Position numbers and translations under genes: made by a program
The notes under the pieces: generated by a model
The model's input: the letters and a program-made list of their open reading frames with translations, nothing else
Databases searched by the model: none
Told to the model about the DNA's origin: nothing
Shown: positions 593-22,716 of the stretch, piece by piece
Numbering within the stretch: the stretch's first letter is position 1
How the letters are laid out: every line of letters starts with the position of its first letter
Source of the DNA: Deltaproteobacteria bacterium
Lineage (GTDB): Bacteria > Bdellovibrionota_F > JAHFAK01
NCBI GenBank assembly: GCA_023250585.1
Contig: JAHFAK010000011.1
Span: forward strand, 1 to 34,491
Direction: 5' to 3'
Length of the DNA stretch: 34,491 nt

Positions 593-730
593 TTATTTCG
601 AGGTAATCCGCATCTGAGAGAAGGATCTCATAATAAAGAAAACTGCAATCGTAAAGAAGATTCCAGCAAGAATGAAATTAGTGGTTTGGCTGAGTTCAAT
701 GGCTATTTCGATTGCGAGTAATCCAAAGAG
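593..730 (-). pseudogene. Displaced copy of the 3' end of the membrane pyrophosphatase gene
   Basis: This segment is a direct duplicate of 1756-1893, the last 45 codons plus stop of the intact pyrophosphatase gene. It starts in frame at the LFGLLAIEIA codons and still ends MRITSK-stop. By eye there are six differences in 138 bp, and all six are synonymous: GCC/GCT, CTC/CTT, AGA/CGA, ACC/ACG, TCG/TCA and AAA/AAG. Homology ends abruptly at 730. The copy has no start and is separated from the intact gene by the MNT/HEPN pair, so it marks the far boundary of an inserted cassette. Confidence 0.9.
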
Positions 731-759
731 GTAACGAGTTTACCTTGATAACTTTGTTG

Positions 760-789
760 TTGATTTTTACAACATATGTTGTATATAAT
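760..789 (+). promoter_or_regulatory. Promoter with embedded 16-bp palindromic operator, upstream of the wHTH-MNT gene
   Basis: TTGATT (760-765) and TATAAT (784-789) are 18 bp apart. The spacer is filled by the perfect palindrome TACAACATATGTTGTA (768-783), and half of it (TTACAACAT) recurs at 789-797 over the start codon. Transcription is predicted to start at about 796, the A of the ATG, so the message would be leaderless. The downstream gene has an N-terminal winged helix, so autorepression through this palindrome is the natural inference. Confidence 0.6.
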
Positions 790-795
790 TACAAC

Positions 796-1341
796 ATGAT
801 TGAATTGTTTTCAAAGCAAACCAGAGAAATAGTACAGCATTTAGTGAAAAATGAACACAAGGCATATTATTTACGTGAGTTAGCTGGGATTTTAGAAATT
901 GATCCGGGTAATTTATCTCGTGCTGTGAAGCCTTTAACCGAATCAGGCTTAATACAAGAAGTTGTGAAAGGAAGATTAAAGTTTTTTTCAATTAATAGAA
1001 ACCATCCTCTTTATAAGGACATTAAACGACTTATTGGTAAGACCTCCGGGATTCCCGATATGATACGAAATATTCTCAAGAAAATAGAGGGAATTGAAAA
1101 GGTATGGATTTATGGATCTTATGTATCCCATCAAATGGATGATAAAAGTGATATTGACTTATTTATTATAGGAACTGTATCTTCGCTCCGGTTGGCAACG
1201 GAGTTTAAATCGATTGAAAAAAGAATCGGGAGGGAAATTCAGTTTCACGTAATGAATCGAGATGACTATAATAAACGCATGAAAAAACACGATATATTTC
1301 TTTATGAAATGAAGAAAGCACGACAACAGATATTTCCATGA
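796..1341 (+). CDS. Winged-helix / MNT-type nucleotidyltransferase, putative antitoxin
   Basis: The protein is 181 aa from the ATG at 796. The open frame extends back to a TTG at 712, but that part overlaps the duplicated pyrophosphatase end and is unlikely to be used. Residues 1-75 form an MarR/ArsR-like winged helix (LRELAGILEIDPGNLSRAVK, then a GLIQEV wing). Residues 95-181 are a minimal nucleotidyltransferase with GSY (107-109) and SDIDLFI (118-124; D119 and D121 are the metal ligands). In the MntA/HepT type VII systems the MNT protein AMPylates a tyrosine of its HEPN partner and neutralises it. The partner gene here overlaps by four bases (ATGA). The winged helix probably binds the palindrome in the gene's own promoter. 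The family call is firm; the toxin-antitoxin role is inferred. Confidence 0.8.
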   Translation: MIELFSKQTREIVQHLVKNEHKAYYLRELAGILEIDPGNLSRAVKPLTESGLIQEVVKGRLKFFSINRNHPLYKDIKRLIGKTSGIPDMIRNILKKIEGIEKVWIYGSYVSHQMDDKSDIDLFIIGTVSSLRLATEFKSIEKRIGREIQFHVMNRDDYNKRMKKHDIFLYEMKKARQQIFP

Positions 1342-1748
1342 GTGATAAACGATTCAAAAAACATCCCTATGATCCAGGACAAGTAAAACGTTACTTCGAG
1401 GGCGCATTACGAAAACTACGAACAGCAGAAAAAATTGCTTATGATGATCGTGAAGCAGCCTATCAATTAGCTTATGAAGCTATGTTAAAAGGATCAATAG
1501 GTTTGATCATGCGTCATGGAATGCGTGTACGAAGTATCCCTGGGCATCATCTTGCTATAATAGAAATGTCTCAAAAGATAATAGGTGAAAAAATATCACC
1601 TATTATGGATCTTTTTGAATATATGCGCCGTAATAGACATTCATTTTTATATGATGATATTTCTGATATCAGTGAGCCTGAATTAAAAGAAGCGCTTGAT
1701 GTTGCTAAGAAATATTTACATATAATAAAAGAACATTTGAAACTATGA
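1338..1748 (+). CDS. HEPN-domain protein, putative toxin partner of the MNT gene
   Basis: This is a 136-aa mostly helical protein that starts inside the preceding MNT gene (ATGA overlap), which implies translational coupling. The helix pair (residues 15-55, FEGALRKLRTAEKIAYD and YQLAYEAMLKGSIGLI) and the motif region MRRNRHSFLYD (96-106) place it in the HEPN superfamily. In the RX4HXY signature, R98 and Y105 are present but the His position is F103; H101 lies two residues earlier. The Tyr targeted by AMPylation in type VII systems is therefore kept, while the RNase His is displaced or lost. The stop lies 7 bp from the convergent stop of the pyrophosphatase gene. Confidence 0.75.
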   Translation: MSDKRFKKHPYDPGQVKRYFEGALRKLRTAEKIAYDDREAAYQLAYEAMLKGSIGLIMRHGMRVRSIPGHHLAIIEMSQKIIGEKISPIMDLFEYMRRNRHSFLYDDISDISEPELKEALDVAKKYLHIIKEHLKL

Positions 1749-1755
1749 TACCTAA

Positions 1756-4146
1756 TTACTTTGACGTAATCCGCATCTGAGAGAAGGATCGCATAATAAA
1801 GAAAACTGCAATCGTAAAGAAGATTCCAGCAAGAATGAAATTAGTGGTTTGGCTAAGTTCAATAGCTATTTCGATTGCGAGTAATCCAAAGAGTGTTGTG
1901 AATTTGATAACGGGGTTAATTGCGACTGATGAAGTATCTTTAAATGGATCGCCAACGGTATCACCAACGACGCAAGCCGCATGAACATCAGTTCCTTTTT
2001 CTTTAAAATTAACTTCAACGAGTTTTTTAGCGTTATCCCATGCACCACCGGCATTGGCCATGAATATTGCTTGATAGAGACCAAACAGAGCGATTGAAAT
2101 AAGATAGCCAATAAAAAAGTACGCGTTAACGCATGCAAATGCAAGTGTGCTAAAAAAAATTGCGAGAAAGAGGTTAATCATTCCGCTTTGTGCAAACTTG
2201 GTACAGATCTCAACGACTTTTTTGCTGTCTTCGATTGATGCCTTAGTGACGCCTTCGAGCTTTATGTTTTTCTTTATGAAATCAACTGCATGATATGCGC
2301 CTGCTGTAACTGCTTGCATAGAAGCTCCGGTAAACCAATATATCATTGCTCCACCCGCAAGAAGGCCAAGCAGAAATGGTGGAAAGAGAATCGATAACTT
2401 GTCAATATTTTCTGTCAAGCCATTAGTTAAAATGACGATAATCGAAAATATCATTGTTGTAGCGCCAACAACGGCGGTACCAATTAATACTGGTTTTGAT
2501 GTGGCTTTAAAAGTATTTCCTGCTCCGTCATTGGATTCAAGATGATGTTTAGCTCGATTAAAATCAGGAGTAAATCCATAGTTTTTTTGTAGATCTTGTT
2601 TAATATTTGGCAGAGTTTCAATAAGCGATAATTCATAAATTGATTGAGCGTTGTCTGCTACCGGGCCATATGAATCAACGGCGATGGTAACGGGGCCCAT
2701 GCCAAGAAATCCAAATGCGACGAGTCCGAAGGCAAAAGTAGCTGGAGCAATCATAAGTTCGGAGAGTCCAAACGTACTGATCCACGCGGCAATTCCCATG
2801 AGAACCATAATGACAATTCCCATCCAGTAAGCGCTAAAATTACCGGTCGTCAGGCCTGAAAGAATATTGAGAGATGCTCCTCCAACTTTAGAAGAATGAT
2901 AAATGTTTTCCACATACGCAGATTCCGTAGACGTAAATCTTTTCACGAGTTCTGGAATAATTGCGCCGGCTGCAGTTCCACATGTTATAATCGAGGCAAG
3001 CTTCCACCAGAGACTTCCTGCTCCTAATTCAGGAATTAATAAATAGGAGCTGAGATAGGTGAGGGATATTGAAATAAAAGAAGTTATAAAAACAAGTGAT
3101 GTTAATGGTGTTTCAAAATTCATCTCTTGCGCATTTCCATATCGAACTTTTGCAAAGAGTTCATTGATCCAATAGGATAATCCGCTGGCAATAATCATAA
3201 CGAGTCTCATCGAGAATATCCAAACGAGAAGTTGTACTTGAAATACAGGATTCTTCACAGCCAAAAGAATAAATGATATGAGAGCAACTCCGGTAACTCC
3301 ATATGTTTCAAATCCATCAGCGGTTGGACCTACAGAATCACCTGCGTTATCTCCGGTACAATCCGCAATAACACCAGGATTACGAGCGTCGTCTTCTTTA
3401 ATGTTGAATACAATTTTCATGAGGTCTGAACCAATATCGGCGATTTTTGTAAATATTCCTCCTGCAATACGAAGCACGGATGCTCCCAACGATTCTCCAA
3501 TTGCAAAACCAATAAAACATGGCCCTGCATACGAGGGATCAATGAAAAGAAGAATAGTGAGCATAACAAAAAGTTCAATACTAATAAGAAGCATTCCAAT
3601 GCTCATTCCAGCTCTTAAGGGGATATCATACACCGGATACGGAGAACCGGTGAGGCTCATAAATGCAGAACGTGAGTTTGCAAAGGTGTTAATTCGCATG
3701 CCAAACCATGCGACTGAATAGCTGCCTGCGATTCCAATGAGACTACAGAATAATATGATTGCCACTTTTGTAGCTTCAAAATGTCTGAGCCAGCCAAAGT
3801 ACATAACCAAAATCACCCCTACAAGGGCCTCAAGAACAAGAATAAATTTTCCTTGTGTAATGAGATAGGTTTTACAGGTTGTATAAATGAGCTCAGAAAT
3901 TTCACTCATTGAAGAATGAACTTTCATATTTTTAATTCGAAAAAACTGTATAAGGCCAAAGAGAAAGCCGAATATACAGATGAGTAGTCCGCCTAAAAGA
4001 AGATTCTTTCCATTGATGTGATTCATGAACATAACGGATGTTAAATCAGGAATAATAAGATCGGCTTCAGAAGCATGCGTTATTCCGAGGAAACTACAAA
4101 AAAAGATTGCCGTAACCAGAAACTTTAATGAGAATCTTGCAACCAT
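1756..4146 (-). CDS. hppA: Membrane-bound ion-pumping pyrophosphatase
   Basis: This enzyme hydrolyses PPi to drive H+ and/or Na+ across the inner membrane. It is 796 aa from the ATG at 4146, chosen because AGAGGT (4156-4151) precedes it; an upstream in-frame ATG at 4161 lacks a ribosome site. Many membrane segments are visible. The catalytic blocks are GGIFTKIADIGSDL, DDARNPGVIADCTGDNAGDS, DGAGNTFKATSKP, and near the end GGAWDNAKK and VVGDTVGDPFKDTSS. The Lys in GNTFKAT is at the position that in the classical A/K rule points to K+ independence; this subfamily (GDSVGPTADGFETYG) may not follow that rule. The N-terminus is hydrophobic and signal-like. Its last 138 bp are duplicated at 593-730. 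Confidence 0.93.
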   Translation of the reverse strand: MVARFSLKFLVTAIFFCSFLGITHASEADLIIPDLTSVMFMNHINGKNLLLGGLLICIFGFLFGLIQFFRIKNMKVHSSMSEISELIYTTCKTYLITQGKFILVLEALVGVILVMYFGWLRHFEATKVAIILFCSLIGIAGSYSVAWFGMRINTFANSRSAFMSLTGSPYPVYDIPLRAGMSIGMLLISIELFVMLTILLFIDPSYAGPCFIGFAIGESLGASVLRIAGGIFTKIADIGSDLMKIVFNIKEDDARNPGVIADCTGDNAGDSVGPTADGFETYGVTGVALISFILLAVKNPVFQVQLLVWIFSMRLVMIIASGLSYWINELFAKVRYGNAQEMNFETPLTSLVFITSFISISLTYLSSYLLIPELGAGSLWWKLASIITCGTAAGAIIPELVKRFTSTESAYVENIYHSSKVGGASLNILSGLTTGNFSAYWMGIVIMVLMGIAAWISTFGLSELMIAPATFAFGLVAFGFLGMGPVTIAVDSYGPVADNAQSIYELSLIETLPNIKQDLQKNYGFTPDFNRAKHHLESNDGAGNTFKATSKPVLIGTAVVGATTMIFSIIVILTNGLTENIDKLSILFPPFLLGLLAGGAMIYWFTGASMQAVTAGAYHAVDFIKKNIKLEGVTKASIEDSKKVVEICTKFAQSGMINLFLAIFFSTLAFACVNAYFFIGYLISIALFGLYQAIFMANAGGAWDNAKKLVEVNFKEKGTDVHAACVVGDTVGDPFKDTSSVAINPVIKFTTLFGLLAIEIAIELSQTTNFILAGIFFTIAVFFIMRSFSQMRITSK

Positions 4147-4230
4147 AAATACCTCTTCCATTTATATTTTTAATAAACGTTTTTTAGAACACATTAAACG
4201 GTCGCTGGGTAATTTAGGTGAGGAAAAATG

Positions 4231-4257
4231 AAAAATCAAAGAAATTTTTTTTCTTTG
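4231..4257 (-). terminator. Rho-independent terminator after tRNA-Glu
   Basis: On the minus strand, CAAAGAAA, a 5-base loop and TTTCTTTG form a perfect 8-bp stem (4257-4237) followed by ATTTTT. The stem begins at the last bases of the tRNA-Glu gene, so it would end the tRNA transcript before the pyrophosphatase gene. Confidence 0.7.
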
Positions 4258-4328
4258 GTCCCAACGGGTTTCGAACCCGTGTTTCCGGCGTGAGAGGCCA
4301 GCGTCCTAGGCCACTAGACGATGGGACC
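4256..4328 (-). tRNA. tRNA-Glu (CTC)
   Basis: The cloverleaf folds on the minus strand: acceptor GGTCCCA pairs with TGGGACC, the D arm reads GTCTAGTGGCCTAGGAC, and the T arm has GGGTTCGAACCC. The anticodon loop CTCTCAC gives anticodon CTC. The discriminator is A, and the 3' CCA is not encoded. Confidence 0.93.
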
Positions 4329-4333
4329 GAATT

Positions 4334-4392
4334 TAAGTTATAAGTTAAGAAAAATTTATATTACAGTTTTTTAACTTACAACTTATAACTTA
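4334..4392 (-). other. Long AT-rich hairpin between tRNA-Gln and tRNA-Glu
   Basis: The arms TAAGTTATAAGTTAAG (from 4334) and CTTATAACTTA (to 4392) pair across a short loop, with matching A5/T6 runs inside. Together with the adjacent hairpin 4393-4435 it fills the whole spacer between the two tRNA genes. It may be a processing or attenuation structure. Confidence 0.6.
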
Positions 4393-4435
4393 GGTAAGAG
4401 AGAAAAATTTTTATAAAAAATTTCTCTCTCTTACC
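4393..4435 (-). terminator. Near-perfect 18-bp hairpin directly downstream of tRNA-Gln
   Basis: GGTAAGAGAGAAAAATTT (4393-4410) pairs with AAATTTCTCTCTCTTACC (4418-4435), with one mismatch. It starts at the 3' end of the tRNA-Gln gene. Its T-rich centre could act as a terminator or as an RNase III-type processing site. Confidence 0.55.
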
Positions 4436-4505
4436 TCTGGGCCGAGGATTCGAACCTCGACAGCTGGAGTCAGAGTCCAGAGTCCTACCATTAGACGAGC
4501 CCAGA
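4435..4505 (-). tRNA. tRNA-Gln (CTG)
   Basis: On the minus strand, acceptor TCTGGGC pairs with GCCCAGA. The anticodon stem CTGGA/TCCAG encloses loop CTCTGAC, giving anticodon CTG, and the T arm reads GAGGTTCGAATCCTC. The discriminator is G, and CCA is not encoded. Confidence 0.92.
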
Positions 4506-4510
4506 AATTA

Positions 4511-4581
4511 GTTTTAGTGGTTAGTTTTTTCATTTTCAGGATTATTCGAAAGATTTTTTTACTAAAAACTACGCACTAAAA
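4511..4581 (-). other. AT-rich hairpin between tRNA-Phe and tRNA-Gln
   Basis: TTTTAGTGGTTAGTTTTTT on one side and ACTAAAAACTACGCACTAAAA on the other form an imperfect stem of about 19 bp that covers the spacer. It follows the same design as the spacer between tRNA-Gln and tRNA-Glu but with a different sequence. Confidence 0.5.
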
Positions 4582-4590
4582 ATGAAAAAA

Positions 4591-4663
<73 letters not shown>

Positions 4664-4778
4664 ATATTAAAGAATCAATTTTTAGGTCGCTTAGCACTAA
4701 ATATAAGGCAAAACAACTACCATCGCATTTTTTTAGAGTCAATTCAAAATAGTATAAAAATGTACTGCCTAACTCACC

Positions 4779-4797
4779 CCATTAACTGAGCCATTAC
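4779..4797. repeat. 19-bp dispersed sequence, copy 1
   Basis: CCATTAACTGAGCCATTAC is identical at 9117-9135, with weaker similarity over the preceding 15 bases. It lies between divergently transcribed units (tRNA-Phe and tmRNA), as does the other copy. The rest of the 220-bp spacer 4665-4884 shows nothing else I can name. Confidence 0.6.
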
Positions 4798-4884
4798 ATA
4801 AAAATCTAATAGATAAAATTTGCTTTTTCATAAATGATTATTATTATCAATTATTGAGCATTAAGATTTTGAATATTTCAAAAG

Positions 4885-5234
4885 GGGGGTGCACCGGTTT
4901 CGACGGGATTAGGAGGATTAAAAACGCATGCCAAGGTTTCTATGCCCTTGTAAAAACATAGAAAAATGTAATTGCAAACAATTACGAATACGCACTCGCT
5001 GCTTAATTAAGCGCGACGCTTGTTGTGCCGATGCTCGCTACGTATAACAAGTGTAAACTCAGCGAACTAGTTTCAAAATTTTTCCTTAGGTTTTGAAGCA
5101 AAACTACATAAGGATCGCTTGCAGGATTACCCTGTTTGTGGGGATTCTTGTGAGTTAAATACAAATACAAACTACGCATGTAGTGCTTTTAGTCTAAATA
5201 ATTTCGGACGCGGGTTCGATTCCCGCCACCTCCA
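4885..5234 (+). ncRNA. ssrA: tmRNA (trans-translation RNA)
   Basis: The RNA rescues stalled ribosomes by acting first as tRNA-Ala and then as a short message. The 5' end GGGGGTG pairs with CACCTCC at 5227-5233 to close the acceptor stem; the discriminator is A5234 and CCA is not encoded. The conserved 5' block CACCGGTTTCGACGGG and the 3' T-arm GCGGGTTCGATTCCCGC are both present. The tag reading frame resumes at GCA (4974) and encodes ANNYEYALAA, ending in TAA at 5004-5006; the AANNYE-ALAA pattern is typical of proteolysis tags. It is a one-piece tmRNA of about 350 nt. Confidence 0.97.
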
Positions 5235-5280
5235 TCCTTTGCTCCTCAAGTTTGAGATAAACTTTCGGAGCTACGGATGG
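5232..5280 (+). other. Long interrupted hairpin at the tmRNA 3' end
   Basis: CCATCC (5232-5237) pairs with GGATGG (5275-5280), GCTCC (5241-5245) with GGAGC (5267-5271), and AAGTTT (5248-5253) with AAACTT (5259-5264), separated by small internal loops. The outer arm uses the last three bases of tmRNA. No T-run follows, so it is more likely a 3' processing structure or a repeat than a simple terminator. Confidence 0.55.
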
Positions 5281-5331
5281 CAAGCCAGTTTCTGAGGACA
5301 AAATTAATTAAAGCAAAATAGGACAAAAAAC

Positions 5332-6342
5332 ATGATGAAGAAAATAGATTTAATACCAGAACAAAAAAACAATCGCGAATTACAAAGACACGTTGTCATT
5401 TACCAAAGTTTTGACGGTAAACTGAGGTTAGAAGCTCAACTTCAAAATGAAACAATCTGGTTATCGCAATTTCAAATTGCAGAATTATTTGGTAAAGGAA
5501 GATCAACTATCACTGAACATATTCAAAAAATTTACGCTGAAGAAGAATTACAACCTACTGAAACTTCAAGAAAATTAAGTAATGTCGGAAATTCCGACAT
5601 TACTACGTTCAAGCCTACGACCTATTACAATCTTGATATGATTATTTCGGTTGGGTATCGAGTCAATTCGGCTATTGCCACGCGGTTTCGTCAATGGGCA
5701 ACACAAACTTTAAAGGAATACATTGTCAAAGGTTTTGTCATGGATGACGAACGTCTTGAAAAGAATGAACGCATCCAAAAGGCTGGTTATTTCGATGAAC
5801 TGCTCGAACGCATTCGCAAGATCAGGACTTCAGAAAAATTGTTTTATGAGAAGGTAAGATTGATTTTTTCAGAAACTAGTTACGATTATGATTCAAGATC
5901 AGATGCTGCAAAAGAATTTTATGCCACTATCCAAAATAAATTTCATTATGCTGTTACTGGTAAAACTGCCGCTGAACTTATCGTTGATCGTATCAGCGCA
6001 CAAAAGAATAATGCCGGCTTGACCGTTTTTAAGGGACATAAGCCCACAACTGATGAAGCAAAAACTGCCAAAAATTATTTGGATGAAAACGAACTTCGTC
6101 AATTATATTTGATTTCCGAACAATTTCTTTCCTTTGCCGAATTACAAATCCAACGAAAGCGAATGATGTACATGGCTAACTGGTCAGAAAAACTCGACGA
6201 TATGCTTAGACGTAATGATTTTGAAGTCCTTATGGACAAAGGCAAAGTGTCCCACAACATGATGGAAGAAAAAGTGAAGGCTGAAATGGAAAAATATCGG
6301 CAACTTCTAGAGTTGGATAAACCGAAAGAAATTACAGAATGA
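5332..6342 (+). CDS. RhuM-family (virulence RhuM-like) protein
   Basis: The 336-aa protein has the features of the RhuM family. An N-terminal region (about 22-130) includes the DNA-binding-like segment IWLSQFQIAELFGKGRSTI, followed by TTYYNLDMIISVGYRVNS and RFRQWATQTLKEYIVKGF. A long helical region lies at 135-336. The family is widespread on genomic islands and its biochemical role is not established. AGGA (5322-5325) precedes the start; the double ATG leaves 5332 or 5335 possible. It lies immediately downstream of tmRNA, a common island insertion point, and overlaps the next gene by four bases. Confidence 0.8.
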   Translation: MMKKIDLIPEQKNNRELQRHVVIYQSFDGKLRLEAQLQNETIWLSQFQIAELFGKGRSTITEHIQKIYAEEELQPTETSRKLSNVGNSDITTFKPTTYYNLDMIISVGYRVNSAIATRFRQWATQTLKEYIVKGFVMDDERLEKNERIQKAGYFDELLERIRKIRTSEKLFYEKVRLIFSETSYDYDSRSDAAKEFYATIQNKFHYAVTGKTAAELIVDRISAQKNNAGLTVFKGHKPTTDEAKTAKNYLDENELRQLYLISEQFLSFAELQIQRKRMMYMANWSEKLDDMLRRNDFEVLMDKGKVSHNMMEEKVKAEMEKYRQLLELDKPKEITE

Positions 6343-6935
6343 AAACAATGATGCTTGAAGTTATTACCACGAGAAAAATCCTTTTGCAATTCCAGAAAGA
6401 CGCTTTCACTCAGGTTGCATCAGCTCAAAAACAACAGGACTTTAATCATTTGAAGTTCAATATAATGAATTGGGCCTTTTGGTTGAGAGCAGATCTAGAG
6501 TTATTGATTCGGGCAGCGTATTGGCAGAATCTTTCGGAAACTGATATTACAGCCCGAATCCTGTATGACTCAAAAGATTTGTATGAAGTTACTTGCAAGA
6601 AGATGGAGATAAAAATTGACAATGAAAAAGTAAAAAAACTCTTCGGTGAGTTGCAAGAGATAGAGAAAAAGAGCAAAATTACACCAATTAAACCTGAAAA
6701 GAATGACGATATTATCGAAAAGCTTAGTTATCGTAAAGATGAACTGAAAGATCTATTTGGTTTTTATAAAGCATTAAGTAAGTTTTCCCATCCAGATCCA
6801 GTTTTTCTTTTTTTTCCCGAAGAAAAATCGAATCAGATTAGAATTAATTTGATGAATATTTTTAGCCGCTGTAGAGATTTACTTGATAAAGAATGGATTC
6901 TCCTTGAAGCTCATCTAAGGAAAGGTAAGGAATAA
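6339..6935 (+). CDS. Unknown protein coupled to the RhuM-like gene
   Basis: I do not recognise this 198-aa protein. Its ATG overlaps the stop of the RhuM gene (ATGA), so the two are translationally coupled. The sequence is mostly predicted helix and has no signal peptide. Features include FNIMNWAFWLRADLELLIRAAYWQNL near residue 45, a charged central stretch, and FYKALSKFSHPDPVFLF near 150. The helical build and the conserved-looking SHPDP motif loosely recall HEPN- or abortive-infection-like proteins, but no catalytic signature is clear. A RhuM plus effector module is conceivable and unproven. Confidence 0.6.
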   Translation: MKTMMLEVITTRKILLQFQKDAFTQVASAQKQQDFNHLKFNIMNWAFWLRADLELLIRAAYWQNLSETDITARILYDSKDLYEVTCKKMEIKIDNEKVKKLFGELQEIEKKSKITPIKPEKNDDIIEKLSYRKDELKDLFGFYKALSKFSHPDPVFLFFPEEKSNQIRINLMNIFSRCRDLLDKEWILLEAHLRKGKE

Positions 6936-6954
6936 AAAAGTTTTATTCCTTACC

Positions 6955-7575
6955 CTACAATTTGAAATTCGTCGAAGCAGTTGTTGAATGCTTAATCGTA
7001 AATGAATCTGAAGTTCCGTAAGCCATAATGATAGTATAGCTTGTTCCTTCTTTTAAAACTCTATCGCGTGAATCGCCGGAATTGAGAGGCATCGTAAATG
7101 CAATTTCCGTTGTTCCATTATTTTCTGTCCCACTTTTGTTGGTGAGATCATCAGTTCCGCCGGCTGCAGTATCGGCTTCGTGTGCGGTTGTTGCCGATCC
7201 ATAATCATCGCGCATAAAAACTTCACCATTTTCCACATATCCAATAATTATATTTGCATCTTTCATGCGGCTCGTTGGATCAAACCCAATTGCAACCCAT
7301 CCGGTTGTTGGAGCGCCGAGTTTTACTGAAATATTTGAATCCACGATTTTCCATTTAATAGTAAAATCATCTTTTGTTTGTGTTTTAAAACCATCAGCGT
7401 CAGTGGTTGTTGTGTCTGTATCGGTCGTTGTTGTAGCGGTTGTTGCAGAATCATTCGTTGAGTTTGTTGCCGTTGTATCATCTGTAGCTGAGGTGTCATC
7501 TTCTGCAGTATCGCATCTATTAATAGCAACGATGAGAAGCAGACTGCTTAAAAATATCGTAAAATTTTTTCTCAT
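6955..7575 (-). CDS. Exported DOMON-domain protein with Thr/Asp-rich linker
   Basis: The 206-aa protein has an N-terminal hydrophobic signal (residues 4-17) ending near C21 (AINRC). That is a poor lipobox because of the Arg before Cys, so lipidation is uncertain. Residues 24-60 are a low-complexity Thr/Asp/Ala linker. Residues 65-206 form a DOMON beta-sandwich with GWVAIGFDPTSRMKDANIII, then GEVFMRDDYG and TTEIAFTMPLNSGD. DOMON domains bind haem or sugars in extracytoplasmic redox proteins. AAGGAG precedes the ATG. It is the last gene of a three-gene minus-strand operon and a paralogue of the adjacent 7744-8253 gene; the two are separated by a palindromic repeat. Confidence 0.75.
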   Translation of the reverse strand: MRKNFTIFLSSLLLIVAINRCDTAEDDTSATDDTTATNSTNDSATTATTTTDTDTTTTDADGFKTQTKDDFTIKWKIVDSNISVKLGAPTTGWVAIGFDPTSRMKDANIIIGYVENGEVFMRDDYGSATTAHEADTAAGGTDDLTNKSGTENNGTTEIAFTMPLNSGDSRDRVLKEGTSYTIIMAYGTSDSFTIKHSTTASTNFKL

Positions 7576-7592
7576 CTATTTCTCCTTCTATA

Positions 7593-7743
7593 GGAACCTC
7601 TGAAAAAGGTCCATCTGTGTCGTTGCACACAAGAGTCACAACCCTCACATACTACCGGAGTATGCTCCGGTTATGACTTTGCGTGCGCCTTACATCTGGA
7701 CCTTTTTGAGAGGTTCCATTAAATATGAGTTTTTCAGAGAGTC
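7593..7743 (-). repeat. 150-bp imperfect palindromic dispersed repeat, copy 1
   Basis: Read on the minus strand, this unit starts at the base after the TAA of the upstream DOMON gene and ends with AGAGGTTCC, 18 bases before the ATG of the next gene. Positions 7593-7717 form a long hairpin: GGAACCTCT and AGAGGTTCC are the termini, AAAGGTCC/GGACCTTT lie inside them, and CCGGAG/CTCCGG is near the tip. It is about 84% identical by eye to 22536-22683, in the same orientation relative to the gene before it. Confidence 0.85.
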
Positions 7744-8253
7744 TTATAATGTAATAGTGACTTTTGCTTTCTTTTTATGTTTTTTGGTAAATGAATCATC
7801 TTCTCCCGTTGCTAAAAGTATTTTGTATTCTTTTCCAGGGATAAGTTTTTGATCATATTTGTCGCCTGAATCAAGTGGAATAGAAAATTCAATCGTTGTT
7901 GTTCCATTTGTTTCACTGCCCTTTTTGGTAAGAATATTGTCTTGTCCCCCGAGTTCTACATCGGCGCTATGTCTTTTTTCTTTTGTTCCAAAATCATCAC
8001 GAATAAAAACGTTTCCATCTTTTACATACCCAATAATAATGTTTGCGTCCCTCATGACTTTTGATGGATTAAAACCAACGCCAATCCACCCAGTCGTGGC
8101 TGCTGAGAGTTTGATCACAAGATTTTGCGCCTCGACTTTCCATTCGAACGCAATATCTTTTGCGACAACTTTTTTTAATGAATCCTTTTTAGCGTCTTCT
8201 GCAAAAGCTGTAAGAGAATATACTAAAAAAAATACGAATATTATTTTTTTCAT
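7744..8253 (-). CDS. Periplasmic DOMON-domain protein
   Basis: The 169-aa protein starts at the ATG at 8253, preceded by GAGG; a GTG six bases upstream overlaps the ribosome site and is rejected. Residues 1-19 are a signal peptide ending in TAFA. The remainder is a single DOMON domain with GWIGVGFNPSKVMRDANIII, then GNVFIRDDFG, GSETNGTTTIEFSIPLDSGD and LLATGEDDSF. It is clearly paralogous to the DOMON protein encoded downstream but lacks the Thr-rich linker, and it has a basic C-terminus (KKHKKKAK). It follows the beta-barrel gene by 8 bp in one operon. A haem- or ligand-binding role at the cell envelope is inferred from the family. Confidence 0.8.
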   Translation of the reverse strand: MKKIIFVFFLVYSLTAFAEDAKKDSLKKVVAKDIAFEWKVEAQNLVIKLSAATTGWIGVGFNPSKVMRDANIIIGYVKDGNVFIRDDFGTKEKRHSADVELGGQDNILTKKGSETNGTTTIEFSIPLDSGDKYDQKLIPGKEYKILLATGEDDSFTKKHKKKAKVTITL

Positions 8254-8261
8254 AGACACCT

Positions 8262-9041
8262 CTAATCATCACCAAAATCAAAATGACGTTTGATATTAAA
8301 ACCAACAAAGATTCGATTTGTATCAGTGCCGAGCATCATGCGTCTCGTGCCTAATTCAATTGTATTACCTGCTTCGAGTACAAATTGATGTCCATATGTG
8401 AGAGCTCCTATTCCAAATGAATAGGTATCTTTGTCCTTTACATACTTTGTTATGCCAATATCTTTATCGAGTACGGGAAAATATTCTCCAAAAACACTGA
8501 GTGATTGAAGCATTCCATGATCTTCAATGATGTTGATATTAATGCCAAAGCCCAGTCCTGGCCTTTCATTGAAGCTATCGTAGCCGACATTTGCAATTCC
8601 TCGTACTTTTTTTATCAAAGGATCAGGCAATGATTGCAGTGAGCCAAGTATAAAAATTGAGTTCTGATGAGTCGTAAGATCGGTTGGTTCAAAATTGAGA
8701 TACTGAACATCTATTTGTGTTTCAATAAAAGCTTGTGGAAAGGAAAATGCATAACCGGTGCCGAGTGCTAATTCTTTTTCTGAAGTTATATAGGAATAAT
8801 CGAGTGTGAATGAAAGTTTTTTCCAGGCAACGTATTGAAAGCCTAAAAGAACATTTGCGCTTGAAATATTAAATGGATTATCATTCGGATGATCAAAATG
8901 ATGAACGAGATTAAATACTCCTTCGTTGGCTTCAATGCTTATAGGAGTTTTTAGATTAGGCATCTCTTGATTAAAGCCGAAAGCAGTGGAAGAAAAAAAT
9001 ACGACACTGACAAAAAAAATAATCCATGAAAATTTGTTCAT
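8262..9041 (-). CDS. Outer-membrane beta-barrel protein, DUF5777-like
   Basis: The 259-aa protein has a signal peptide (1-22, ending STAFG) and alternating aromatic beta strands throughout. It ends HFDFGDD rather than in the usual terminal Phe. The segment SFGIGALTYGHQFVLEAGN followed by IELGTRRMMLGTDTNRIFVGFNI resembles the DUF5777 beta-barrel family, which accompanies extracytoplasmic redox proteins. It is first in an operon with two DOMON proteins, so a surface or outer-membrane partner for them is plausible. No Shine-Dalgarno sequence is visible, and the promoter predicts an almost leaderless message. Confidence 0.7.
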   Translation of the reverse strand: MNKFSWIIFFVSVVFFSSTAFGFNQEMPNLKTPISIEANEGVFNLVHHFDHPNDNPFNISSANVLLGFQYVAWKKLSFTLDYSYITSEKELALGTGYAFSFPQAFIETQIDVQYLNFEPTDLTTHQNSIFILGSLQSLPDPLIKKVRGIANVGYDSFNERPGLGFGININIIEDHGMLQSLSVFGEYFPVLDKDIGITKYVKDKDTYSFGIGALTYGHQFVLEAGNTIELGTRRMMLGTDTNRIFVGFNIKRHFDFGDD

Positions 9042-9052
9042 ATATTCATTTG

Positions 9053-9081
9053 ATTGTATGATGAATGAGATTTCGAATCAA
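9053..9081 (-). promoter_or_regulatory. Promoter of the beta-barrel/DOMON operon
   Basis: On the minus strand, TTGATT (9081-9076) and TACAAT (9058-9053) are 17 bp apart. The predicted start at about 9046 is only five bases before the ATG at 9041, and there is no ribosome site, so the mRNA looks near-leaderless. Confidence 0.55.
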
Positions 9082-9116
9082 TAGTGCTTTTGGATAGAGT
9101 ACGAGTTCTAACCCTT

Positions 9117-9135
9117 CCATTAACTGAGCCATTAC
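9117..9135. repeat. 19-bp dispersed sequence, copy 2
   Basis: This copy is identical to 4779-4797 (CCATTAACTGAGCCATTAC). It lies between two divergent promoters, upstream of both -35 elements, which is a suitable place for a shared regulator site. Confidence 0.6.
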
Positions 9136-9154
9136 CACGAATTTACTTATTGTT

Positions 9155-9183
9155 TTGATTTTTGGACTAGTTATTTTTATACT
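9155..9183 (+). promoter_or_regulatory. Promoter of the subtilase-like/MlaC fusion gene
   Basis: TTGATT (9155-9160) and TATACT (9178-9183) are 17 bp apart. The predicted start near 9190 lies about five bases before the ATG at 9195, and no Shine-Dalgarno sequence is present. Confidence 0.5.
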
Positions 9184-9194
9184 TCATTATAAAT

Positions 9195-11417
9195 ATGGAT
9201 AAGAAATTTTTTTCTAGTAAACTATTGCTCTTGATCTTTTTCTGTCTCGGTATTCCTATGCAAGCTAATGCTCAACGACTTCCCGTCAATACTATATCTC
9301 AAATGCGCGAAGGCTTTATTCCCGGTTTTCATGAAGCGCTTAAAGAATACACCGGCGAAGGAATTTCAATTTATTATGTAACCAAGGAAAAAGCAGATCT
9401 TAATTTTTTAAAAACCATTGATAAACCATCCATAAAAAATATACAGACAATCATTGATAAAGGTCCAAAGTATGTAAATTTCCTTTTTAATTCACTCTTT
9501 TCTCCTGATGCAGTCATTAAATTTTTAACGTTTGATGATTTGGAAAAAGGAGAAGATAAAAAAATTCTCCATGCAGTTATCGTTATAGAAGATATCGAGC
9601 ATTTTATTGAAGAAGCAACGCGGTTTAAAGAACAGCTTCTGCAGTTAGCACAAAAAAATGTTGTCATCGTTCCTTATACTCAAGCCTTGGTCACCGTACT
9701 TACCAGTTTAGATTTAGTAGATAAAGTTCTGATTACAGCTCCATTTGATGCTGAGAAATTTTCTCCTGTTGTACAGAGTGATGTGTTGAATATTGATATT
9801 GATATTTTTACTCCGACGATTTCCTCATCGCTTATTTTTTTGAAGGATATGGATGAAGAAGAAAAAACTGAAAAGATTCAAAAGTATCAACGATCAACTA
9901 TTCATGCAGCTTTGCTCGCATCGGGAGCAAGTCTCGTATTGGAAAAAGTCAAAAAAGATAAAGTTATTAATCCTATCAGAGATACAAAAGCTCTTCTTTG
10001 GAAACATACTAAAAAAATGTGGTTTCCTCCTGAAGATCATATTGTTTACTTTGATATGAATAAACACCAATACCAATCTAATGAAGCAGTGAAAAATGTT
10101 ATTCCTCTTTTAGATAGTGCAGCGGCATTAGATTTGCCCATGGAAGATCATTACCTCAAAGCCATGCAGATTGATAAAGCCCACAGTAGCGCGTCGGGAA
10201 AGGATGTTAAAGTAGCAATTATTGATCACTCATTTATCAAAGAGAGTAGTTCAATGATGCCTTCTATTATTTTGCATGAAATAATGGGCAAAGAAAAGCC
10301 TGCGCAACTTCCTGGACCAGGATTTTTATTGAGCCAAGAACTTATAAAAATAGCTCCTGGCGTGCAAATTATTGCTCTCGAAAGTAGCAGTTCAAGCGAT
10401 GAGCTGAGAAAAGCAATTGAGCGAGCTATCGAGCTCATGGCTAATATTGTTGTGATTCGTGATCTTCCTAAAAATATTGCCAAGGATCTTGTGCCAACAT
10501 TACAAAAACTTCATGATAAAGGAGTTCTTCTCGTTACTCCTTCATATTGTGGCCCTCAAAAAGATTTTACTGTTTTTGAGATATTTAATTCCGGAAGCTC
10601 GTTCGTTCAAGACAAGGTATGCGGTGAAAAAAATGAAATCAAAGTAACGGTAGATACTTTGGTTTTACCCGCTGATGGAATACGACAAGATTTTCCGTAC
10701 GTCAGAGCAACTGAAAATATGAATAGACTTTCTTCTACAGCGATTATAGCAGGCGTGACGGCAATGATGCTTGAAATGAAAAATGATATTAAAAACAGTG
10801 AAGTCAAAAAAGTATTGAGCAGCGCCCAACAAGAATTTGGATTTGGTAACACATTACTTGATGCACAAAAAGTACTCGAAGAAGTTGATCAACTGAAAAA
10901 GAAAAATGACCTTGAGAGTTATTCAGATAAAATGAAAAAAAATATTGAAAATCTCATCGCAGTAAAAGATCAAAAAAGTTTACGAGAGCAACTCAAAGAG
11001 AGTTTTTCTTTTACCTATATGAGTAAACTTGCACTTGGTAATCATTGGGATACTTTAACAGAAAAAGAGAAAGAGGATTTTCTATCCTTACTGAGAGAAA
11101 ATATTCTCCAAGGTCTTGTGAAGGTAATTTTACAAAAGGAACGTTCAATTAATGTTAAAGGCTCTGTTATTAAAGGCGATATGGCTACCGTAAAAGCATA
11201 TGTGAAACAAAAAGAAGTGGATATTGAGTTCCAATTCCAATTTGTAAAGCTCGAAGGCAAATGGCTTCTTTATAATGTTATTGTGGATAATGCGAGCTTA
11301 CTTGATCGTTATAAGCAAGATTTCCAAGAATATATGAAAAAAAATAGCTTCGAAGCCTTACTCGATAAAATGAGAAAAAATCTTGAAAATGTATCTAATT
11401 CTGTCAATCCAAAATAA
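9195..11417 (+). CDS. Exported fusion: degenerate subtilase-like region plus MlaC-like domain
   Basis: The 740-aa protein has a signal peptide (1-26, ending ANA). Residues 30-320 are of unknown type. Residues about 325-565 follow the subtilisin (S8) order: GKDVKVAIIDHSF (D344) matches the Asp block, RLSSTAIIAGVTAMMLE (511-527) the Ser block, and EFGFGNTLLDAQKVLE the C-terminal strand. The His block is replaced by LPGPGFLLSQELIKIAP, and the usual AGN oxyanion motif reads TPSYCG, so protease activity is doubtful. Residues 600-735 match MlaC/Ttg2D phospholipid-binding proteins (FTYMSKLALGNHWDTLTEKE, then GKWLLYNVIVDNASLLDRYKQDF). The MlaC part suggests lipid transfer across the periplasm. No mla genes are nearby. 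Confidence 0.7.
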   Translation: MDKKFFSSKLLLLIFFCLGIPMQANAQRLPVNTISQMREGFIPGFHEALKEYTGEGISIYYVTKEKADLNFLKTIDKPSIKNIQTIIDKGPKYVNFLFNSLFSPDAVIKFLTFDDLEKGEDKKILHAVIVIEDIEHFIEEATRFKEQLLQLAQKNVVIVPYTQALVTVLTSLDLVDKVLITAPFDAEKFSPVVQSDVLNIDIDIFTPTISSSLIFLKDMDEEEKTEKIQKYQRSTIHAALLASGASLVLEKVKKDKVINPIRDTKALLWKHTKKMWFPPEDHIVYFDMNKHQYQSNEAVKNVIPLLDSAAALDLPMEDHYLKAMQIDKAHSSASGKDVKVAIIDHSFIKESSSMMPSIILHEIMGKEKPAQLPGPGFLLSQELIKIAPGVQIIALESSSSSDELRKAIERAIELMANIVVIRDLPKNIAKDLVPTLQKLHDKGVLLVTPSYCGPQKDFTVFEIFNSGSSFVQDKVCGEKNEIKVTVDTLVLPADGIRQDFPYVRATENMNRLSSTAIIAGVTAMMLEMKNDIKNSEVKKVLSSAQQEFGFGNTLLDAQKVLEEVDQLKKKNDLESYSDKMKKNIENLIAVKDQKSLREQLKESFSFTYMSKLALGNHWDTLTEKEKEDFLSLLRENILQGLVKVILQKERSINVKGSVIKGDMATVKAYVKQKEVDIEFQFQFVKLEGKWLLYNVIVDNASLLDRYKQDFQEYMKKNSFEALLDKMRKNLENVSNSVNPK

Positions 11418-11432
11418 ATGTCCTCCTAATCC

Positions 11433-11461
11433 TTGACATGCAGAGCATTTACTGTTAGGAA
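11433..11461 (+). promoter_or_regulatory. Possible promoter of the rpsL operon
   Basis: A perfect TTGACA (11433-11438) is followed after 17 bp by the weak -10 candidate TAGGAA (11456-11461). The start would lie about 35 bases before the rpsL ATG. Only the -35 element is convincing. Confidence 0.35.
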
Positions 11462-11502
11462 AGTCACCTTTTATATTATGATGTTGTATAAGGAGATTTT
11501 TC

Positions 11503-11874
11503 ATGCCGACAGTAAATCAGCTAGTGCGCAAAGGAAGACGAAAAGTTCACAATAAAACGCGGTCCCCGGCTCTTAAAGAAAGTCCACAAAAAAGAGGCGT
11601 GTGTGTTCGTGTTTATACAACAACACCTAAAAAACCAAATTCGGCACTCCGAAAAGTTGCTCGTGTTCGTCTAACCAATGGATTCGAAGTAACAAGTTAT
11701 ATTCCTGGCGTAGGCCATAACCTTCAGGAACACTCGGTTGTTTTAATCCGAGGAGGAAGAGTTAAAGATTTGCCGGGAGTTCGCTATCATATTGTTCGTG
11801 GTTCTTTAGACGCTACAGGAGTTCAGGATAGAAAACAAAGTCGTTCAAAATATGGAGCAAAGAAAAACAAATAA
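11503..11874 (+). CDS. rpsL: Ribosomal protein S12
   Basis: S12 is part of the decoding centre of the 30S subunit. The 123-aa product has the usual length and the conserved [18 protein letters not shown] and [17 protein letters not shown] blocks, with the Lys residues whose mutation gives streptomycin resistance in other bacteria in the wild-type state. AGGAG lies 8 bases before the ATG. It is the first gene of the str operon, 25 bp ahead of rpsG. Confidence 0.98.
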
Positions 11875-11899
11875 GGTTATGTTAAGGAGATAAATAATT

Positions 11900-12373
11900 A
11901 TGCCAAGACGACGAGAAGTTGCAAAACGGACCATTTTAGAAGACCCAAAATATAAGAGTAAACTTGTTGCAAAGTTTATTAACAGTCTTATGATAGGCGG
12001 GAAAAAGAGTGTTGCTCGCGGGCTTCTTTATAATGCTCTTTCTATACTCGGTACAAAACTTAAAAATGAAGATTCTCTTAAGGTTTTAACAAAAGCAATT
12101 GATAATATAAAACCAGTTATCGAAGTAAAATCACGTCGTGTTGGTGGATCGAACTATCAAGTTCCCGTAGAAATTCGGGGATCACGCCGTGAAGCACTTG
12201 CCATTCGTTGGGCTATTCAATATGCACAACAAAGAGGCGGCAAATCAATGGAAGAAAAGCTTGCCGCTGAACTTGAGGATGCTTATCATAATAAAGGATC
12301 TGCAATTAAGAAAAAAGAAGATACTCATAAAATGGCCGAAGCAAATAAAGCTTTTGCACATTTTAGATGGTAA
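11900..12373 (+). CDS. rpsG: Ribosomal protein S7
   Basis: S7 nucleates assembly of the 30S head and contacts the E site. The 157-aa product starts [10 protein letters not shown] and keeps [26 protein letters not shown] and the [15 protein letters not shown] ending. AAGGAG precedes the ATG. The last 42 coding bases plus 17 downstream bases (12332-12390) are duplicated at 13832-13890 beyond an inserted ATPase gene, so rpsG is separated from fusA, its normal operon partner. Confidence 0.98.
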
Positions 12374-12390
12374 CCATATTTCCTCGACTG
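12332..12390 (+). repeat. Direct repeat, rpsG 3' end (intact-gene copy)
   Basis: This 59-bp segment matches 13832-13890 with a single difference (position 12383 C, 13883 T), which lies outside the coding part. The offset is exactly 1500 bp. Similarity stops abruptly at both ends. Confidence 0.9.
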
Positions 12391-12430
12391 CGACACAATT
12401 TACTCAATACGTGTTTTGTCTAAGATACAA

Positions 12431-13705
12431 TCATGAGTTTTCCAAAATAAACTCATCAGCTGAAAGGATTTTAATAGTTTTATTTTCTAATTCAATTGTA
12501 TCATTTTCATTATAAGTAATTATATATCCGTTTTGTTTTTTCATTTCATTCATAAAATGCATAAGTGAATTAATTTCTCTTTTTTTTGTTTTTTCATTTT
12601 CCATGCTATATGAAGCTTGATATAGATTTTTATTATCAAAAAAATCAACTTCATACTTTTCTCGTAAATAAAAAACGTTATCATTTTTATTAATTAAATA
12701 ATTTAATATTATTTGTTCAAATTCTTTTGATATAGAATCTATTGGAAATGTCCCTAATTGTAAAAACCCATTATCGGTTACATAAAGTTTTTTTGCCGAC
12801 TTAAGCTGCTCTTTTATTTTAAAATGAAATTTATCAATTGTTTTTACAATAAAAGCATCTTCAAAGTATCTAAGATATTCCTTTATTGTTTTATCGTTTA
12901 TATTTAATGCATTTGAAAGTAATTTATAATTTATAAGACCACAGGCATTAGACATAATATAATAAAATACTTTTTCTATATCATAATGATGCCGAATCTG
13001 ATATCTTGGAATTATGTCATGAAAAATTATACTTTTTGCATAACTAATCAGAATTTCTTTTTTAATGCTTTCATTGTTTTCATAAAAAACTTCAAAAAAG
13101 CCACCCCACTTTAAATATTCATCAAATGCTCTTCTTATATCAATTTTATTTTTAATTCTTTGAATTTCATCTTTGTGCTCAATGCCTTTATAATTTAAAA
13201 ATTCTCGGAAATTAAAGGAGCTTAAACTAATATTTAAACAACGACCAGTTAAAAGTGTATGTAAATCACTTGATAAAAGAGAAGAATTTGATCCGGTTAC
13301 AACAAACTTAACATTTTGAGTTTCATATTTATTTTTAACAAATACTTGCCAATTCTCGAAAAATTGAACTTCATCGATAAAAAAATAAATTTTTCCTTGT
13401 GGATTTGCAATTTTTATATATTCATCAAATATATGGTTTAAGTAATTGATATTTTGTTTATGCTGAATAAAGAATGGATGCTCAAGATTTAAAAATAAAA
13501 TATTTTTAGAATTTACTCCTGCTTCTATTAAATGATTTATAGCCTGTTTTAAAAGTGTGCTTTTACCGCATCTTCTTATACCCGATATTGTAATAATTTG
13601 TTTGGGCTCTAAAAACGCAATAAGATCTTTCAATTTTTCCCTAATAATTCCTGCTTGAATCTTGTTTTGCCAATGTAAATTTTGTTCTACTAATACATTT
13701 TTCAT
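12431..13705 (-). CDS. AAA-family ATPase with DUF4143-type C-terminus
   Basis: The 424-aa protein starts at the ATG at 13705 (GGAG six bases upstream; the frame also extends to a TTG at 13717). The Walker A motif is SGIRRCGKST (41-50), Walker B is IYFFIDEVQ (106-114), and the sensor-like strand is FVVTGSNSSLL (135-144). The C-terminal half has a winged-helix region (NALNINDKTIKEYLRYFEDAF) and a nuclease-fold-like YEVDFF/LYQASYS segment, as in the DUF4143 family. These stand-alone ATPases are common in archaea and host-associated bacteria, and their role is unsettled. The gene has a consensus promoter of its own, faces rpsG, and is flanked by direct repeats of the rpsG end. It is more AT-rich than its neighbours. 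Confidence 0.85.
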   Translation of the reverse strand: MKNVLVEQNLHWQNKIQAGIIREKLKDLIAFLEPKQIITISGIRRCGKSTLLKQAINHLIEAGVNSKNILFLNLEHPFFIQHKQNINYLNHIFDEYIKIANPQGKIYFFIDEVQFFENWQVFVKNKYETQNVKFVVTGSNSSLLSSDLHTLLTGRCLNISLSSFNFREFLNYKGIEHKDEIQRIKNKIDIRRAFDEYLKWGGFFEVFYENNESIKKEILISYAKSIIFHDIIPRYQIRHHYDIEKVFYYIMSNACGLINYKLLSNALNINDKTIKEYLRYFEDAFIVKTIDKFHFKIKEQLKSAKKLYVTDNGFLQLGTFPIDSISKEFEQIILNYLINKNDNVFYLREKYEVDFFDNKNLYQASYSMENEKTKKREINSLMHFMNEMKKQNGYIITYNENDTIELENKTIKILSADEFILENS

Positions 13706-13746
13706 GCAGTACTCCAAATAATTACATTTTTCGTATTATAACTACT

Positions 13747-13776
13747 ATTATATACGATTTTTTCGGACTATGTCAA
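13747..13776 (-). promoter_or_regulatory. Consensus promoter of the ATPase gene
   Basis: On the minus strand, TTGACA (13776-13771) and TATAAT (13752-13747) are both perfect matches, 18 bp apart. The predicted leader of about 35 bases contains GGAG before the ATG at 13705. This is the best promoter match in the window. Confidence 0.75.
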
Positions 13777-13831
13777 ATTTTATTCCTGACTTACAGAACG
13801 AAAATAGGTACTATCCCACGCATTCATCAAC

Positions 13832-13890
13832 ATGGCCGAAGCAAATAAAGCTTTTGCACATTTTAGATGGTAACCATATTTCTTCGACTG
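13832..13890 (+). pseudogene. Displaced copy of the rpsG 3' end
   Basis: The segment holds the last 13 codons and stop of S7 ([13 protein letters not shown]) plus 17 bases of downstream sequence, repeated 1500 bp from the intact copy. No upstream rpsG sequence is recognisable. It marks the far edge of the ATPase cassette. Confidence 0.9.
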
Positions 13891-14052
13891 AGACTCAAAA
13901 GTCCCATTTTTATTCTACAAATTTTCTTTGTTTTTATAGGTAATAGTATAAAAATATAATAATATTAAAAACTTAGACTTTTTAAATTTTGTGGTATTTA
14001 TTTTGCATATCTAAATTAAAAAGAACATGTTAATAACTTATTGAGGTATTGT

Positions 14053-22535: not shown

Positions 22536-22683
22536 GACCCTCTAAAAAACTCGTATTTCAAGGAACCTCTACAAAGGTCCAGATGCGAGGCGCACGCAAA
22601 GCCCCAACCGGAGCATACTCGGGTAGTATGTGAGGATTGTGGTTTTGCGTGCAACGATGCAGATGGGCCTTTGTAGAGGTTCC
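22536..22683 (+). repeat. 150-bp imperfect palindromic dispersed repeat, copy 2
   Basis: The unit starts at the base after the rpsC TAG and ends with AGAGGTTCC, about 20 bases before the ribosome site of rplP. Positions 22562-22683 form a long hairpin: GGAACCTCTACAAAGG pairs with CCTTTGTAGAGGTTCC, GCACGCAAA lies opposite TTTGCGTGC, and CATACT opposite AGTATG is near the tip. It matches copy 1 (7743-7593 read on the minus strand) at about 84% by eye. Confidence 0.88.
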
Positions 22684-22716
22684 TTTAGTTTACGTATTTT
22701 ATTACGGAGATAGTGT

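Follow-up and report, generated by a model that had tools for sequence, protein, structure and literature searches.

Copies of gene 3′ ends flank toxin-antitoxin-type and ATPase cassettes in a deltaproteobacterial genome

The window analysed here is a stretch of 34,491 nucleotides from Deltaproteobacteria bacterium (GTDB lineage Bacteria; Bdellovibrionota_F; JAHFAK01; assembly GCA_023250585.1, contig JAHFAK010000011.1), which is number 27 among the 164 contigs of a draft genome of 2.24 Mb. At two loci of the window an intact conserved gene, hppA or rpsG, is followed by a small cassette and then by a second, direct copy of the gene's own 3′ end, here termed the orphan end. The scanned DNA of the same genome (121 stretches, 1.43 Mb, 64% of the genome) shows eight genes, essential or metabolic in function, with a direct copy of their own 3′ end 0.6–3 kb downstream: hppA, rpsG, lepA, thiG, a pta-like gene, a DeoC/LacD-type aldolase gene, truA and nrdB. 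Together these carry nine orphan ends and nine cassettes, so the genome contains at least nine. All nine intervals hold toxin-antitoxin-type or candidate-defence cargo. It appears moderately probable that at each locus an addiction or defence cassette has come in by homologous recombination with its target gene, a donor's 3′ end displacing that of the resident.

Orphan gene ends and their cassettes

A direct-repeat search of the window aligns the hppA pair over 138 bp with 95.7% identity (E = 4e-61), and the rpsG pair over 67 bp with 95.5% identity, or over 75 bp with one gap (E = 2e-25). Coordinates are given in Table 1. The sequence-only reading from which this analysis started had described one architecture at both loci, and the two direct repeats are indeed real, with the hppA and rpsG 3′ ends recurring beyond the cargo. 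Its range of 59–138 bp of homology is correct for hppA but slightly short for rpsG. Its statement that the intact genes keep full reading frames agrees with the profile coverage of both proteins. The distance between rpsG and fusA is 10–278 bp in 26 of 29 other genomes as against 3.4 kb here, thus the interval in the window is added DNA.

Cassette 1, at hppA, has an MNT-type nucleotidyltransferase adjoining a HEPN protein (Polbeta and HEPN profiles), as do MntA/HepT type VII systems. The MntA NCBIfam profile gives a score under the family cut-off with this nucleotidyltransferase. The HTH-nucleotidyltransferase is the likely antitoxin of the cassette and the HEPN protein the likely toxin, while the palindrome within the putative promoter is a possible autoregulatory operator. 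Cassette 2, at rpsG, carries a single AAA_14/DUF4143 ATPase. Both types of cargo had been named in the sequence-only reading and both are recovered by Pfam and PADLOC profiles, the HEPN match in Pfam lying below the gathering cut-off.

Over the nine intervals the cargo consists of MNT/HEPN in three, AAA_14/DUF4143 in two, and a VapC-PIN protein, a PIN-like protein with a 56-aa partner, DUF4160/DUF2442 and a nucleotidyltransferase-like pair in one each. The cargo presumably has a killing function. Profile searches of the nine cassettes met no restriction-modification genes, the cargo being of toxin-antitoxin type or AAA_14 instead. Neither an integrase nor a transposase is found among the cargo open reading frames of all nine, which extends to the whole set what had been said of the two window loci. 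The cargo is convergent on the target gene in seven of the nine, including both in the window; convergence therefore holds where it was first described but is not a general rule. The genome is rich in Polbeta genes (26 matches) and DUF4143 genes (34 matches), and five of the nine cassettes contain one of either kind, compared with about 5% of random kilobases (a rough estimate, P ~4e-5). The enrichment of such cargo that the sequence-only reading had anticipated is thus present, as are the further loci it had anticipated: seven more cassettes at six further genes.

Table 1. Features of the two window loci and cargo of the nine cassettes. Loci labelled L lie elsewhere in the same genome.
Feature	Location	Strand	Evidence or remark
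Intact hppA, H+-translocating pyrophosphatase, target gene of cassette 1	1756..4161	−	Pfam H_PPase E 1e-178, profile 1-644/645
3′ end of intact hppA, last 138 bp, stop codon included, exact end at stop	1756..1893	−	Direct repeat, alignment
Orphan copy of hppA 3′ end; 6 differences, 6/6 synonymous	593..730	−	Alignment
Putative sigma70-type promoter, cassette 1: TTGATT 760-765, TATAAT 784-789	760..789	+	Sequence reading
Perfect 14-bp palindrome ACAACATATGTTGT inside putative promoter	769-782		Sequence reading
HTH + MNT-type nucleotidyltransferase, ATG at 796; PADLOC candidate PDC-M05A	796..1341	+	Pfam Polbeta E 2e-10; PADLOC E 2e-37
HEPN-domain protein; PADLOC PDC-M05B	1338..1748	+	Pfam HEPN E 6e-4, below gathering cut-off; PADLOC E 1e-11
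Intact rpsG, ribosomal protein S7, target gene of cassette 2	11900..12373	+	Pfam Ribosomal_S7 1-148/148
rpsG 3′ end (last 50 bp) + 25 bp past stop, intact locus	12325..12398	+	Direct repeat, alignment
Orphan copy of rpsG 3′ end; 1-bp insertion, one K>N change	13824..13898	+	Alignment
AAA_14/DUF4143 ATPase, convergent with rpsG; PADLOC candidate single-gene system PDC-S01	12431..13717	−	Pfam AAA_14 E 2e-33; PADLOC E 2e-102
Trypsin-like protease gene, between rpsG orphan and fusA	14041-15507		
hppA cassette cargo: MNT/HEPN	window		PADLOC PDC-M05
rpsG cassette cargo: AAA_14/DUF4143	window		PADLOC PDC-S01
lepA cargo: 73-aa + 161-aa protein, nucleotidyltransferase-like by eye	L154		No profile match; resemblance only
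thiG cargo: two tandem cassettes, MNT/HEPN, then AAA_14 (PDC-S01)	L182		
pta-like gene (phosphate acetyl/butyryltransferase) cargo: VapC-type PIN + small upstream partner	L194		
DeoC/LacD-type aldolase cargo: PIN-like protein + 56-aa partner	L198		No profile match; resemblance only
truA cargo: MNT + shortened HEPN	L201		
nrdB cargo: DUF2442/DUF4160	L210		

The cassettes are 0.6–1.7 kb in size, and the repeats are 64–258 bp long with the last 50–175 bases of the coding region duplicated. In the direct-repeat scan, internal paralogy and dispersed repeats were removed, the latter by copy number, as dispersed palindromic repeats give many pairs. The DNA repeats that then remained and touched conserved genes were all at 3′ ends, in the eight genes listed above except nrdB, which was added by a protein-level scan. 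This second scan (tblastn, composition-corrected) used a fixed filter: 75% identity or more to the terminal 70 aa (C or N), at a distance of 250–6000 bp and without an open reading frame of its own. In the window's genome it gave 9 matches among 1,029 C-ends and 1 among 1,035 N-ends, the N-end match being a dispersed repeat. This comparison within one genome is the stricter control. In 918 kb of loci from 80 other genomes no orphan gene ends were found (0 of 656 C-ends, 0 of 627 N-ends), which is a rough control as these loci are centred on one gene and mostly GC-rich. Given nine orphans at eight genes, none among the 656 control C-ends, and a single N-end match to a dispersed repeat, the arrangement is not chance.

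Several candidates from the scans were rejected. An apparent 5′-end duplicate (L223 3523-3741) is a scaffold gap with Ns and duplicated flanks, L148 is a dispersed repeat, and the repeats at L158, L159, L164, L173, L207, L234 and L237 are either not gene 3′ ends or ambiguous. The candidate at L162 (3352-5795) consists of two near-identical tRNA-Asp genes (99%) around 2.3 kb.

Divergence between intact and orphan ends

Pooled over the loci, with one thiG comparison counted, 34 of the coding differences between intact and orphan ends fall on third codon positions, 8 on first and 2 on second. Synonymous differences make up 31 of 44 (70%), whereas about 39% is expected for an orphan drifting freely beside a constrained gene (P = 3e-5). 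In hppA (6/6), pta (8/8) and lepA (5/5) the differences are entirely synonymous, 19 of 19 in a subset picked after seeing the data, and include CGA to AGA in hppA and TTG to CTG in pta. This predominance of synonymous differences suggests that the two ends diverged as working genes, most of the divergence having arisen in different cells with both under selection as gene ends, before they became neighbours.

The stop codons suggest a direction. Intact lepA ends in TAA and its orphan in TAG, while the truA orphan has its own TAG directly after the repeat and intact truA extends three codons into cassette DNA. From these stops it appears that the orphan is the older resident end and that the present gene end came with the cassette. 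Decay of the orphans is also seen: a nonsense change in the aldolase, a 2-bp insertion in lepA, a 1-bp insertion in rpsG and a 22-bp deletion in both thiG orphans. Overall, frameshifts, stop or replacement changes occur in five of the eight orphan sets. The truA differences (6 of 7 nonsynonymous) can also be counted as orphan decay, and nrdB displays no differences in the coding part of the repeat.

The thiG locus (L182:12599-15820) contains three copies of the 3′ end around its two tandem cassettes, and copies 2 and 3 share the 22-bp deletion. A copy that was already dead therefore seems able to take up a cassette, and of all the loci this one argues most strongly for a step of the duplication type.

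Origin of the cassettes

In the mechanism we favour, a diverged relative would be the source of the incoming DNA, in which the target gene's 3′ end is followed directly by the cassette. Through recombination this donor end would become attached to the body of the resident gene, leaving the gene complete and the resident's own 3′ end as an orphan beyond the cassette. Homology-based recombination is the economical choice of mechanism, and two routes, both possible, seem likeliest: a circular cassette with 50–260 bp of gene end could enter by one crossover of Campbell type, or linear donor DNA could be taken up and joined homologously at one end and illegitimately at the other. The machinery would presumably be RecA together with natural transformation, and addictive cargo would select against deletion by recombination between the two copies. 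We infer the donor, the direction, the uptake route, the crossover type and the mobility, movement from cell to cell included. Import of a donor 3′ end with its cassette fits better than a local duplication with later decay, because of the synonymous divergence, the orphan stops of lepA and truA, and the decay of the orphans.

Certain observations weigh against import of a donor end. The synonymous excess comes mainly from hppA, pta, lepA and thiG, the truA changes run the other way, and allelic exchange at the intact gene at a later time is another possible source of synonymous differences. The deletion common to both thiG orphans fits a second cassette landing in and duplicating the dead copy, i.e. 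a target duplication, rather than arrival of a fresh gene end. ComEC is present in the genome, but alone is no proof of competence.

Several of these points are shared with a classical insertion with long target duplication, in which the cassette copies about 100 bp of its target, the copies are identical at birth and the orphan decays neutrally. Such insertions were first seen between Helicobacter pylori strains, for restriction-modification genes, with long target duplications whose length varies and is on the scale of 100 bp (PMC3874152, PMC1643837, PMC3031569); Nobusato et al. 2000 is the reference for them, which PMC3874152 reviews. The anatomy and size range are the same, all nine inserts here being flanked by target-derived direct repeats of this order. 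Likewise an addictive unit without a transposase is involved, with a restriction-modification precedent in a naturally transformable species. A dead copy serving as target would explain the thiG deletion, and the mostly nonsynonymous changes in truA and the lack of any in the nrdB coding sequence are as expected. However, copies identical at birth do not readily account for the pooled excess of synonymous differences, for the three genes in which all are synonymous, or for the changed stop codon at lepA. The cassettes also differ from the restriction-modification cases in their toxin-antitoxin or AAA_14 cargo, and in that the repeats are without exception gene 3′ ends, the target gene remains whole and most differences between the copies are synonymous. 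This origin is considered rather unlikely. Its existence does mean that the arrangement has a named precedent, where the sequence-only reading knew of none.

Cassettes and duplications might instead arise everywhere, with only addictive cargo surviving deletion between the repeats. Selection for addiction would account for the cargo bias with no targeting, but it leaves unexplained both the restriction to 3′ ends (nine, against no genuine 5′ ends) and the synonymous divergence. As a full account this is very doubtful; such retention is probably a true part of entry by homologous recombination and not an alternative to it.

Chimeric assembly of strain variants, with an orphan that is really the gene end of a different strain's allele placed after the cassette, would also yield synonymous differences, and the genome is a draft with duplicated flanks at one scaffold gap elsewhere (the L223 case). 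Against this, no cassette contains an N, the junctions of cassette and orphan have no common sequence to mislead an assembler, and the lesions in five of the eight orphan sets are not expected of working alleles. An artefact of this kind is very improbable.

Encoded in the genome are two XerC/D-like tyrosine recombinases, of 295 and 306 aa, and one further tyrosine recombinase domain, at the start of an open reading frame of ~1020 aa (L312:1174-3411), which is unusual for a recombinase. No serine recombinase was found in a genome-wide search. The repeat boundaries are abrupt, and inspection of the repeats and junction flanks at the eight genes showed no shared core or motif. Integrative elements with gene 3′ ends for their attB sites, in the manner of phages and islands, and with a site-specific integrase encoded elsewhere, would give the att-like layout and a gene end restored by the element, but are hardly credible with eight unrelated targets, no common core, long and diverged repeats and this set of recombinases. 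Of the mobilising enzyme encoded elsewhere that the sequence-only reading had allowed for, the tyrosine-integrase option is thus unlikely. Identity as integron cassettes is unlikely as well, because the flanks are gene ends.

Prophage e14 and phage 21 attach in icd, where the host's 3′ end is displaced by one that the element brings along and that differs from it synonymously. The cassettes would resemble them in these respects. They differ in that these phages have an integrase and a fixed core, whereas the cassettes are small, have no integrase and use many target genes.

Related systems and other genomes

Merodiploids result from transformation with partly repeated DNA, and a further route already known is homology-facilitated illegitimate recombination, both treated in PMC3784515. 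One homologous anchor, uptake of foreign DNA and repeats at the junctions are features in common with the cassettes. There, however, these are rare laboratory events or duplications of 100–900 kb, while the cassettes here are recurrent and carry one class of cargo (PMC3784515). The names MntA/HepT (type VII), PADLOC PDC-M05 and PDC-S01, and VapBC match the cargo genes and not the 3′-end arrangement. A literature search that covered subscription papers little found no description of toxin-antitoxin cassettes that sit at the 3′ ends of genes and have a displaced orphan end beyond them.

Among 30 HEPN and 30 DUF4143 loci, almost all from other genomes, one case resembles the cassettes. L316:1092-2648, in genome G030 from outside the window's class, shows a 56-bp gene 3′ end with its stop, a convergent AAA_14 gene, and a second copy of ~70% identity with its own stop. 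Alternatively, a paralogous gene may end with this second copy. The candidate at L323 was rejected as an insertion among TPR repeats. The nearest relative among the genomes compared, G001, has only the class in common, and no gene-end orphans were seen at its four Polbeta loci. Exact searches of viral contigs with the rpsG and hppA repeats gave no match. The window's genome stands out, and the cassette form may exist elsewhere.

Other repeats frame similar or different modules. In genome G043 (L294:1251-2699) an intergenic direct repeat of 211 bp, 98% identical, flanks an MNT/HEPN pair. At L173:2092-3783 a dispersed 62-bp repeat occurs in direct orientation on both sides of an AbiE-like pair, which shows that modules of this sort can be framed by repeats of other kinds than gene ends. 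The interval between the L162 tRNA-Asp genes holds histidine-kinase-like and glycosyltransferase-like open reading frames. Within the window, 7588-7743 and 22536-22688 form a 156-bp inverted repeat (85%) that probably belongs to one of this genome's several families of dispersed palindromic repeats, and 9195-11417 is a single open reading frame with a protease-like N-terminal part (by eye) and an MlaC domain (Pfam).

The candidate class of 3′-end-replacing cassettes put forward in the sequence-only reading gains support from the synonymous differences and from the orphan stops of lepA and truA. A wider proposal, which is tentative and for us less than probable, is a class of integrase-free mobile addiction cassettes that would use the 3′ end of a housekeeping gene as attachment homology. 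They would leave and re-enter by homologous recombination, as circles or as transforming DNA, and give the host a replacement gene end; many could be present per genome, also in tandem, with unrelated toxins. The arrangement bears on the means by which toxin-antitoxin and small defence modules travel when no carrier element takes them along. The signature of intact gene end, cassette and diverged orphan end would mark an entry event and date it against the decay of the orphan, which makes carrier-free spread directly testable in any strain collection. It would also link addictive cargo to the persistence of an otherwise unstable direct-repeat structure.
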